Part shown: in pieces, positions 7,095 to 59,458 of the stretch
How positions within the stretch are numbered: position 1 is the first letter of the stretch
How the letters are laid out: every line of letters begins with the position of its first letter
From: Methanoculleus chikugoensis
Lineage (GTDB): Archaea > Halobacteriota > Methanomicrobia > Methanomicrobiales > Methanoculleaceae
Reading direction: 5' to 3'
Length of the DNA stretch: 64,000 nucleotides
Assembly (NCBI RefSeq): GCF_019669965.1
Contig: NZ_AP019781.1
Span: 1,054,001 to 1,118,000 of the forward strand
Translations under genes and position numbers: made by a program
The notes under the pieces: generated by a model
Seen by the model: only the letters and a program-made list of their open reading frames with translations
Told to the model about the DNA's origin: nothing
The model's database searches: none

Positions 7095-7339
7095 CGCACC
7101 TCGCACCTGATGGTGCTCGAACTCCTTGAAACCCTTTGGGTTTCTTAAACTCCGTTCCTACGAAACGTCGCACTTCGCACCTGACGGTGCTCATGCTCCT
7201 GCCATTCTGGCAGTCGCACTTCGCACCTCCGGTGCTCGAACTCCTTTCCCTTCGGGAAAGTCGCACTTCGCGGCTTCGCGTCCTTCGCACCTTGCGGGGC
7301 TCATGCTCCGGATGTCCCATCCGTCGCACTTCGCGTGAG
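7095..7339 (+). repeat. Hairpin array (repeat family 2), array 1
   Basis: A run of short inverted repeats with different arm sequences joined by constant linkers. Units in order include CACC/GGTG, GAAACCC/GGGTTTC, GTT/AAC, CACC/GGTG, TGCC/GGCA, CACC/GGTG, TTTCCC/GGGAAA and GGAT/ATCC. The linkers are GTCGCACTTCG and CTCgaaCTCC or CTCatgCTCC. The array ends in CTTCGCGTGAG at 7329-7339. No matching left terminal repeat is visible; the left edge abuts the pelA stop codon. With array 2 it fills most of the 727-base gap before the EMC6-like gene. The rest (7523-7814) contains no convincing gene except the leader of that gene. Confidence 0.8.
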
Positions 7340-7365
7340 ACTGTATAGCTATCTGCACCTGTTAA

Positions 7366-7522
7366 CTTACGCGAAGCCGCGAAGAGCGATGGGCGCAACG
7401 CCCGGAGTTTGAGCACCGCAGGTGCGAAGAACGCGAAGTTCGGTAGATGGGTATATGACTCCCCTGCGCACTCTTCGAGTGCTCAAACTCCATTTCTTCA
7501 AAACGTTGTTCTTCGTGTGAGA
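7366..7522 (+). repeat. Hairpin array (repeat family 2), array 2 with terminal inverted repeats
   Basis: Bounded by CTTACGCGAAG (7366-7376) and CTTCGTGTGAG (7512-7522), which are imperfect inverted repeats of each other. Internally it holds GCGAAGCCGCGAAG, a GGGCG..CGCCC hairpin, the linker GGAGTTTGAG, CACCGCAGGTGC and GCGAAGAACGCGAAG. It is mostly in the opposite orientation to array 1, so the two stand head to head with 26 bases between them. Confidence 0.75.
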
Positions 7523-10061: not shown

Positions 10062-10318
10062 TCGGACACGGATTTCCAGTGGGTATCGCCATGGCGGAGG
10101 GGCTGACGGGGAGTGCGATGTTCCGCAGGAACGGAGCTCGAGCACCCGAAGGGTGCGGAGTGCGAGCGGAGCGAGCTTGAGCACCGATAGGTGCGAAGGG
10201 GGCGTGCCCCCTCCCCTGTCTCCAACTCGCACCTGACGGTGCTCGAACTCCTTTCCTTCGGACAGTCGTTCCCTCCGTGGCGATTCTCCCACGATCCAGT
10301 GTATCGAGTTTTCGCGCC
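10062..10318 (+). repeat. Dispersed intergenic repeat, family 1, copy B, containing hairpin-array modules
   Basis: The left end ACGGATTTCCAGTGGGTATC-GCCATG and right end GTGGCGATTCTCCCACGATC-CAGTG match the ends of copies A, C and D. In place of the usual GC-rich core there are family 2 modules: GTTCC/GGAAC, CACCC/GGGTG, CACC/GGTG and TTTCC/GGA with linkers such as GGAGCTCGAG. The element lies between the convergent ABCE1 and propeller genes. The flanks 9954-10061 and 10319-10500 hold no gene that I can support. Confidence 0.75.
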
Positions 10319-34847: not shown

Positions 34848-35402
34848 GTGCACGGATTTCCACTGGCTATGCATCTGGCGGGGCTTATGCTCCCAGACGT
34901 TCTATCCATTGCAAGTCCAAGACCTTCGGTCTTCTCCTGCTCCTGCCCCGCACCTCCGGTTCACGGAACTCCGTTCCCATGGAACGTCGTTCCTACCGGT
35001 GCTCCAGTTCCGTTCCTCGCACCTAACGGTGCTTACGTTCGCTATCGTTTACGCCTCGAAGACCTCCGGTCTTCTCAAACTCCTGTCCGAAACCCTTTGG
35101 GTTTCTCAAGCTCCGGCCCAGCGGGCCATCGCATTCTACGGACAGTCGTTCTCCGGAACGTCGCACCTTCGGCCAGTCGCCTATCGCCACGCACTGCCCG
35201 CCCCTCAGGGGGGCGGAACGACGTTCCATCAGGAGCGGAGTTTGAGCACCGTCAGGTGCGAATGAGGAGCGCGAAGCGCGGGTGGTGGGGGTTACAGAGA
35301 TCCATTATAACGTGGAGACAGGGGAGGGGGCGCAGCCCCCTCCCCGTCAGCCCCACCCCCAATGGCGATTCTCCCACGGTCCACTGCATCGGGCTTTTCC
35401 TC
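34848..35402 (+). repeat. Dispersed intergenic repeat, family 1, copy C, expanded by a hairpin array
   Basis: The left end CACGGATTTCCACTGGCTAT and the right end ATGGCGATTCTCCCACGGTC-CACTGCATCGGG match the family. Between them the element is 555 bases because a family 2 array occupies its left part, with arms AGACC/GGTCT, GTTCC/GGAAC, CACC/GGTG, GAAGACC/GGTCTTC, GAAACCC/GGGTTTC and GGCC/GGCC. The conserved core then resumes at about 35181 (CGCCACGCACTGCCCGCCCC) and the GACAGGGGAGGGGGCGC block follows at 35318. It fills most of the 864-base gap; 34710-34847 and 35403-35573 hold no gene I can support. Confidence 0.78.
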
Positions 35403-44408: not shown

Positions 44409-45035
44409 ATGATCCCTCTCATGCTTGACCTGACGGCCAGGAGGGTGCTCATATTCGGCGGAGGCGACGTCGGTGCCCGAAAGGCTGCGTTCTTTGAGCA
44501 TGAGGCGGAGGTGACGGTGATCAGCCGTTCTTTCTCGCCGGACCTCGACGGTCTCGCGATCCGGCGGCAGGAGACCGATCTCTCGGCTCTCCCGGACGAG
44601 GCGCTCCGGGGCTTTCTTTCGGGTGCGTTCCTCGCAGTAGCCGCGACGCCGGATTCGGGCCTCAACGACCGTATCGGAAGACTGTGCGCTGAGGCCGGTG
44701 TTCTCTTCAACAACGCCGCAGGCGAGCCCGGCGACGTCACCATCCCTTCGGTCGTCCGGGGCAGCCGCTTCCTCGTCGCGATCAGCACCCGCGGAAAGAG
44801 TCCCGCCGTTTCGCGGTACCTCCGCATGAGACTTGAAGCGGATTACGCAGACCTCGATATGATGATCGAGCTGCAGGAGGAGATCCGTCCGATGCTCCGG
44901 GAGACCGAACCGGTGCAGGCAGAGCGGGCCCGCATCCTCTGGGAGATCCTCTTGGACGACGAGATCCGGGCAGCGCTCGCCACCGACTACGGCCGGGCGC
45001 GCGCACTGGCTATCGAGAGGTACCTGCATGCCTGA
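44409..45035 (+). CDS. Precorrin-2 dehydrogenase / sirohydrochlorin ferrochelatase-type protein, 208 aa
   Basis: NAD-dependent oxidation of precorrin-2 to sirohydrochlorin (Met8/CysG N-terminal type), the branch toward siroheme, F430 and corrinoids. The Rossmann motif is IFGGGDVGARKA near residue 15, followed by NNAAGEPGDVTIPS and the STRGKSPAVSRYLR segment that contains the family's catalytic surroundings. The C-terminal helical domain is present. It is the first gene of the tetrapyrrole operon and overlaps hemA by eight bases. Start ATG 44409 is close to a TATA-like sequence and probably has a short leader. Confidence 0.93.
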   Translation: MIPLMLDLTARRVLIFGGGDVGARKAAFFEHEAEVTVISRSFSPDLDGLAIRRQETDLSALPDEALRGFLSGAFLAVAATPDSGLNDRIGRLCAEAGVLFNNAAGEPGDVTIPSVVRGSRFLVAISTRGKSPAVSRYLRMRLEADYADLDMMIELQEEIRPMLRETEPVQAERARILWEILLDDEIRAALATDYGRARALAIERYLHA

Positions 45036-58793: not shown

Positions 58794-58813
58794 GGTGTTC
58801 TCATCTAGTTCGG

Positions 58814-59084
58814 CTCACGCGAAGTGCGACGTTCCGCAAGGAACGGAGCATGAGCACCGCAAGGTGCGAAGTGCGATGGTTCGTAAGAACCGGAGTTCGA
58901 GCCTCGAAGGCGCGAAGGACGACGGGCCGAAAGGCCGGAGTTTGAGCCCCGAAGGTGCGAAGTGCGACGGGCCGAAAGGCCGGAGTTTGAGCCCCGAAGG
59001 TGCGAAGGACGACGGTTTGTAAAACTGGAGTGCGAGTTGGGCTACTATCCACTAATCTTCGCGTTTTTCGCGGCTTCGCGTGAG
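58814..59084 (+). repeat. Hairpin array (repeat family 2), array 3 with terminal inverted repeats
   Basis: Bounded by perfect 11-base inverted repeats CTCACGCGAAG (58814-58824) and CTTCGCGTGAG (59074-59084). Between them paired arms alternate with constant linkers: CGTTCC/GGAACG, CACC/GGTG, GGTTC/GAACC, CC/GG, GGGCC/GGCC(twice), GCCCC/GGTGC (one mismatch, twice) and GGTTT/AAACT. Linkers are CGAAGTGCGA or CGAAGGACGA and GGAG(c/t)(a/t)TGAG-like sequences. The unit pair repeats with a period of 42-46 bases. Confidence 0.85.
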
Positions 59085-59109
59085 CTGGTTGTAGGCAGAA
59101 TGATGCAAT

Positions 59110-59347
59110 CTCACGCGAAGAACGCGAAGCCGCGAAGTGCGACGTTCCGTAGGAACGGAACTTGAGAAACCCGAAGGGTTTCGAAGTGCGACCTCCCCTG
59201 TGGGGAGGGAGCATGAGCACCGTAAGGTGCGAAGTGCGACGTTCCATAGGAACGGAGCTTGAGCACCGTAAGGTGCGAAGTGTGACATTCCACAGAGACG
59301 TCGTTCTGAATGGTGCTCAAGCTCGCTACGCTCGCTCTTCGCGTGAG
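59110..59347 (+). repeat. Hairpin array (repeat family 2), array 4 with terminal inverted repeats
   Basis: Bounded by CTCACGCGAAG (59110-59120) and CTTCGCGTGAG (59337-59347). Arms in order: CGTTCC/GGAACG, AAACCC/GGGTTT, CCTCCCC/GGGGAGG, CACC/GGTG, CGTTCC/GGAACG and CACC/GGTG. The end is more degenerate (GCTCAAGCTCGCTACGCTCG). Together with array 3 it occupies nearly all the 697-base gap between the convergent carB and betaine-transporter genes; 59348-59458 shows nothing more. Confidence 0.85.
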
Positions 59348-59458
59348 ACTGCATCGGTTCCCGGCGCTGAAAACACCTCTGTCAGAGGTCACACTGCCTG
59401 CGGTTAGCAACGCAGCATCAGGCGGTTGCGTGGGAACCTTCTGCAAAAAAAGAGGGGT

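Follow-up and report, generated by a model that had tools for sequence, protein, structure and literature searches.

The hairpin arrays found at positions 58813-59355 of the window (the whole stretch of 64,000 nucleotides that was analysed, corresponding to positions 1054001-1118000 of the 2.62-Mb single-contig genome) are probably a pile-up of copies of a mobile, non-autonomous two-hairpin DNA module of ~42-45 nt, which inserts into its own copies; a probability of about 0.7 is assigned to this interpretation. At the level of sequence, it is supported by the definition of the unit, its pairing, the insertion/absence polymorphism, the flanking duplications and the nesting on the same strand. 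If this is true, the two-hairpin unit would rank among the smallest mobile elements known.

Organization of the arrays

The arrays are flanked by genes whose translations indicate carB and a convergently transcribed ABC-transporter substrate-binding protein; an interpretation as coding repeats was discarded, since the arrays sit between the 3' ends of these two genes and outside both. They consist of two elements (58813-59085 and 59102-59355), together containing about eight repeats of ~46 nt and both closed by the inverted ends CTCACGCGAAG and CTTCGCGTGAG; all the features described here are on the forward strand. The first element is delimited by the inverted repeat I8, at 58813-58824 (GCTCACGCGAAG) and 59074-59085 (CTTCGCGTGAGC). 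Unit 1 (58825-58867) carries the arms CGTTCC/GGAACG and CACC/GGTG and is recognized by the covariance model with 53.4 bits (E 3e-12; DNA fold z -4.6); it is separated from unit 2 by a GAAG (58868-58871) that, from its sequence and the duplication statistics, is read as a duplicated target site. Unit 2 (58872-58913; covariance model match at 58872-58911, 29 bits) has the arms TGGTTC/GAACCG and a decayed second hairpin, unit 3 (58918-58958; 45.3 bits) has a linker starting with GAC, and unit 4 (58963-59003; 45.0 bits) folds poorly with DNA parameters. The match for the decayed unit 5 (59008-59045; 15.8 bits, E 0.017) is marginal; its arms, GGTTT/AAACT, include one G.T pair.

The second element is delimited by the inverted repeat I1 (59102-59124 and 59333-59355; 23 nt, 91% complementary) and contains three units identified by the covariance model. 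Unit 6 (59138-59182; CGTTCC/GGAACG and AAACCC/GGGTTT) and unit 8 (59235-59276; 59.4 bits; CGTTCC/GGAACG and CACC/GGTG) are absent from the related species G003, G010 and G031, as seen in alignments of the orthologues; unit 7 (59187-59230; CCTCCCC/GGGGAGG and CACC/GGTG; DNA fold z -5.0) has a counterpart in G003 and G031 and is missing in G010. The variable complementary arms previously noticed from the sequence are located as claimed, and none of the arm pairs listed there for this locus is missing; CCTC/GGCG and CCCC/GGTG are imperfect arm pairs that were not in that list. The covariance model also revealed a further array of the family at 7103-7510, mostly on the minus strand, and units on both strands at 10114-10270 and 34950-35259.

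Structure and folding of the unit

The unit, ~42-45 nt long, has the arrangement NNC-GA-armA-loop-armA'-GA-GNN-nGAG-armB-loop-armB'-C and the consensus TGCGA..GAGCnTGAGCACC..GGTGC, with two hairpins that are unlike in sequence and role. The sequence-only reading had described them as joined by constant linkers, a description that has to be corrected, because, across a tandem GA/GA mismatch, bases of the two linkers pair with each other and co-vary. The three bases preceding GA in linker 1 (TGC, AAC, GAC, CGC) pair with the three following GA in linker 2 (GCA, GTT, GTT, GCG); the inner pair is Watson-Crick in 94/122 distinct cases (shuffles 66 +- 4, maximum 81) and the outer one in 68/122 (shuffles 45 +- 4, maximum 58). 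Given this pairing, the unit is made of two adjacent hairpins, the second one having a G-C closing pair with GA on either side. Furthermore, CGAAGTGCGA reads as C, the end of a unit, followed by GAAG, a target copy, and by TGCGA, the start of a unit; linker 1 is in part a target duplication, and the linkers are not passive spacers. This offers a simple origin for hairpin arrays whose linkers look constant, the linker being largely duplicated target.

Taken singly, the units give clean DNA folds, with z values of about -4 to -5, the exceptions being two degenerate units in the window. The three-base loops are GNA in 91/145 cases and the four-base loops GNNA in 46/90, mostly with a C-G closing pair; the third base of the GNNA loops is usually a pyrimidine, and only 10/46 are GNRA. 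In DNA, d(cGNAg) and d(cGNNAg) form loops of unusual stability; in RNA, GNRA is the preferred type.

Covariation of the arms

The covariation inside one genome proposed by the sequence-only reading was confirmed, being far above shuffled and slid controls and reaching into the presumed linkers. The covariation score of 30 selected units is 0.443; shuffles gave 0.173 +- 0.016, and slid structures did not exceed 0.108. In the same units, 89.3% of the cells are paired and 68 are changed on both sides, versus 25.9 in shuffles. Among distinct hairpin-A arm pairs, same-pair changes account for 54 of the 113 two-step neighbours, about 1 in 11 being expected. The pattern does not arise by chance either: CGAAGNNCGA-N10..22-GGAGNNTGAG has 43 matches in the genome, and the reversed control pattern 0.

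As to the causes that had been offered, namely selection on folded RNA or DNA, or rewriting of one arm from the other, the covariation itself stands and neither cause is demonstrated. Units come in whole, hence the arms within an array vary together trivially; moreover, the gain and loss of whole units drives array turnover, so that arm rewriting is not required. The family-wide pairing, being kept over many different sequences, does require that either selection or repair acts at the source. This would be most simply explained if onward copying were restricted to units that still fold, the resident copies then decaying. Few vertically inherited orthologous units qualified for a compensation test: in this very small sample four are identical and two or three are changed.

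Nesting, target duplications and presence/absence polymorphism

Nineteen unit contexts interrupt the hairpin of another unit, and the inserted unit is on the same strand as its host in 19 of them and on the opposite strand in 0; the selected loci, together with copies lying within larger repeats, are partly non-independent. At the best nested sites, excision of the unit with one target copy restores a perfect host hairpin, and the short duplications (GAAG, GGG, GGA, GAG) are exact; these sites include CACCGAAG-unit-GAAGGTG at four loci (L124, L137, L145 and L161), CTGTCCGTAGGA-unit-GGACAG (L110), CTTTCCCGCAGGG-unit-GGGAAAG (L286 and L326, the latter in this genome) and CTTCCCCGGAGGG-unit-GGGGAAG (L057). 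Because each host is itself a complete family hairpin, it must be older than its guest, and the nested events are therefore polarised as insertions. In the shifted-position control of the excision scan, positive shifts were clean (0-1 hits), and negative shifts of 5-15 nt gave up to 25 hits, where neighbouring tandem hairpins restore a hairpin. Some nested duplications are imperfect (TAGG/GAGG, AGGA/GAGA, TAGG/GACT), and L081 has none.

Flanking duplications of at least 3 nt were found in 21/62 distinct units without GAAG on the left flank (shuffled mean 9.2, maximum 17 in 2000 shuffles), and duplications of 4 nt in 82/184 units (mean 53.7, maximum 66). The unit borders are constant across different targets and coincide with the ends of both pairing helices. 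In 66/67 cases the terminal C of the unit is followed by G; this leaves an uncertainty of one base at the 3' border (C or CG), and the duplications measure accordingly 2-3 or 3-4 nt.

In 30 orthologous carB loci, the intergenic region can be as short as 45 nt or exceed 1 kb, and the arrays differ even among close relatives. One-unit insertions and deletions were scored by global pairwise alignment of four orthologous loci, an earlier BLAST-based search having given one event. Clean one-unit insertions of 42-51 nt are present in one species and absent in the other, some of them outside any array; orthologous pairs with and without the unit are L160/L165, L161/L173, L168/L164, L222/L223, L205/L199, L259/L251 and L260/L263, among which L161/L173 is a nested site with an empty orthologue. 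For example, G007 has GGCGAT-TGCGATGG...GGTGC-GATACC where G016 has CATGGCGATACG, and G032 has a one-unit insertion in GGGAGTG-CACCC...TTTTC-GAGTGACG; the hairpin interrupted in G003, CCGGCCGAAGGG-TGCGATG...GGTGCG-GGGCGG, is uninterrupted in G031. Between this genome (G000) and G010, whole units have been gained or lost in register.

Proposed mechanism and alternative explanations

In the proposed mechanism, an enzyme supplied in trans would move the module, with the folded single strand as its substrate, and the arms would co-vary through the copying of modules that fold. Modules would insert singly and in a fixed orientation, on the 3' side of a short run of purines (GAAG, GGG, GAG, GGA); the site would frequently lie immediately 3' of a hairpin loop in another module, and 2-4 target bases would be copied in the process. 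As GAAG flanks most modules and each insertion would recreate it, both arrays and nests would grow; recombination between near-identical units would then add or remove further copies. Most in-array events are equally explicable by recombination between CGAAG repeats, which counts against mobility.

No mobilising gene was identified in the genome searches, which returned neither Y1 (REP-type) transposase nor reverse transcriptase families. Y1_Tnp (PF01797) has 0 matches in G000, G003, G005, G012, G015, G019, G026 and G030 and a marginal one, below the cut-off, in G031, clear matches being found mainly in array-poor genomes; the reverse transcriptase (RVT_1) has 0 matches in G000 and is present in 3/35 genomes of the genus. 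On these grounds, interpretations as RAYT/REPIN elements and as retroposed elements were both rejected. It is tempting, but still speculative, to see in the two-hairpin unit a new class of mobile DNA, in which enzymes of a family so far unconnected with mobility would copy a module of ~42 nt into purine runs, on one strand and preferably in the loops of other such modules, folding of the single-stranded DNA being the sole selected property and the sequence drifting by compensatory change. Should two hairpins totalling 42 nt prove able to move and self-nest with neither inverted ends nor the help of a Y1 transposase or a reverse transcriptase, the lower size limit and the chemistry of mobile DNA would need revision. 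The high copy number, genus-wide presence and interspecies polymorphism should make the mobiliser findable, either by comparative genomics or through new insertions in a culturable methanogen.

An enzyme-free spread is rather unlikely, but it deserves serious consideration: stalled replication would switch template through purine microhomologies, copy one unit and return, and the apparent duplications would be the microhomologies themselves. The prevalence of GAAG on the unit flanks (on both sides in 73/184), its position as the commonest nested target and the lack of matches to the two enzyme families in this genome all agree with such a process; however, at GGG, GGA, GAT and GAG targets the unit borders are unchanged and carry no remnants of the donor GAAG, so that the duplicated bases match the target rather than the donor. 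Unequal recombination alone, as in an ordinary minisatellite or mosaic palindromic repeat where the shuffling of whole units makes the arms co-vary, is quite improbable as the sole process. It would account for the run of 13 near-identical 46-nt units in G019 and for the in-register differences between G000 and G010, but it leaves unexplained the solitary units in unrelated intergenic DNA, those lying within the hairpins of other units and the flanking duplications, and the orthologue-supported insertions at non-array sites speak against it.

Rewriting of the arms by intrastrand template switching (quasipalindrome correction), with no selection on folding, is improbable as an explanation of the covariation, though it could act alongside mobility. 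Many hairpins are perfect and same-pair changes are far above chance, as it would predict; however, one mismatch is left uncorrected in 71/130 distinct, well-formed hairpin-A sequences, three copies of the mismatched hybrid CGTTCC..GGACCG persist within a single array of G019, and the linker-linker pairing across hairpin A finds no explanation. A structured RNA encoded by the host, such as a terminator, a stabiliser or a small RNA whose transcript folding is selected, is very improbable, despite the strong covariation and the 20/39 loci lying between convergent genes, where terminators are expected. Interior arm mismatches are G.T in 22 cases and A.C in 17, with no G-U excess, and this near equality does not favour an RNA tolerating G-U; a T.G excess is confined to the outermost pair of hairpin A, beside the GA tandem (17 vs 3). 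Moreover, just few of the GNNA loops are of the GNRA type, no Rfam family was matched (at gathering scores the window gave only a tRNA), and orthologous intergenic regions, some of them 45-180 nt long, freely drop or swap arrays. Thus, the balance leans weakly towards folded DNA rather than RNA.

Comparison with known repeats

The mobile two-hairpin module resembles the REP, BIME and REPIN sequences, which are short, palindromic, extragenic, present in high copy number and in mosaic clusters, and presumably move in the form of a folded single strand, the REPIN also having two hairpins per mobile unit. Differently from REPIN, the two hairpins of this unit differ from each other and do not form an inverted pair, the arms vary freely and flanking target duplications are present; the unit consensus has neither the conserved 5' tetranucleotide of REPs (GTAG/CGTC) nor the inverted REP pair, and the Y1 transposase of the REPIN/RAYT system was not found in this genome or in nearly all its array-rich relatives. 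With MITEs, which depend on DDE transposases, the unit shares the non-autonomous nature, the nested and clustered insertions and the short target duplications (in excess over shuffles and exact at several nested sites); however, it is far shorter, nests in a strand-specific manner and has no terminal inverted repeats, as it starts with NNCGA and ends with armB'-C. The inverted ends CTCACGCGAAG..CTTCGCGTGAG belong to the larger element, a layer separate from the unit.

The small dispersed repeats of cyanobacteria, reportedly described by Elhai and colleagues in 2008, are about 21-27 nt long and mobile with no known transposase; the unit is similarly tens of nucleotides long, dispersed, polymorphic in presence and non-coding, a likeness in these general traits. 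The two-hairpin grammar, the covariation and the purine-run target are not known for those repeats. The M1 and M2 repeats of Pithovirus are also palindromic, with putative target duplications, alternating clusters and an autonomous transposon that was not found; conversely, they are about 140 nt long, have terminal inverted repeats and occur in giant viruses (PMC10664404). Among openly licensed papers, no description of the two-hairpin repeat was found in the literature on Methanoculleus repeats: it is not mentioned in the M. marisnigri genome paper (PMC3035220), and the genus is not named in the RepRanger survey of REPs (PMC12306157).

Distribution and associated repeats

The covariance model gave at least 159 matches in the 2.62-Mb genome at E<=0.01. 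The family is almost confined to Methanoculleus, being found in nearly all the sampled members of the genus and in one sister genus, with no more than stray matches in other families of the order. A pattern scan of 84,980 species genomes returned 62 loci, of which the six bacterial ones (L062, L069, L070, L076, L098 and L105) have no hairpins and were dismissed as chance matches. A metagenome-assembled genome from another family of the order carries a real two-hairpin unit beside a shortened second one (G129:C2:2589-2630, L293), which could be due to transfer or mis-binning. Two IMG/VR scans for viral carriers found no contig bearing the unit. According to a heuristic gene finder, 39 units lie between convergent (20), co-directional (13) or divergent (6) genes; this bias away from divergent genes is as expected for DNA tolerated off promoters and is like that of other extragenic palindromic repeats. 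In the UBA206 assembly, the ends of many contigs (L080, L090, L094, L095, L099, L102 and L111) lie no more than about 100 nt from a unit; the units therefore probably break short-read assemblies of the genus.

A second repeat layer coincides with the two elements at 58813-59085 and 59102-59355 and occurs at 25 sites genome-wide; its inverted ends, CTCACGCGAAG...CTTCGCGTGAG, are composed of CGCGAAG heptads and separated by a conserved spacer of ~26 nt, with a consensus like GTGAG-RCYGTATYRTTATCTGCACCTGTTA-CTCAC. The GAAG sites of this layer seem to have been invaded by the two-hairpin units. Another associated sequence is a G-rich palindromic intergenic repeat (ATCGCCATTGGGGGTGGGGCTGACGGGGAG...), a frequent landing place that also carries some units to new sites (L145, L147, L155, L259, L124 and L143; in G000 at 44887, 731239, 1650927 and 1948467). 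One of these loci, L147 (G019:C1:1429852-1430440), holds the 13 tandem units, with a 46-47-nt period; its three copies of the hybrid CGTTCC..GGACCG are evidence for recombination inside hairpins.
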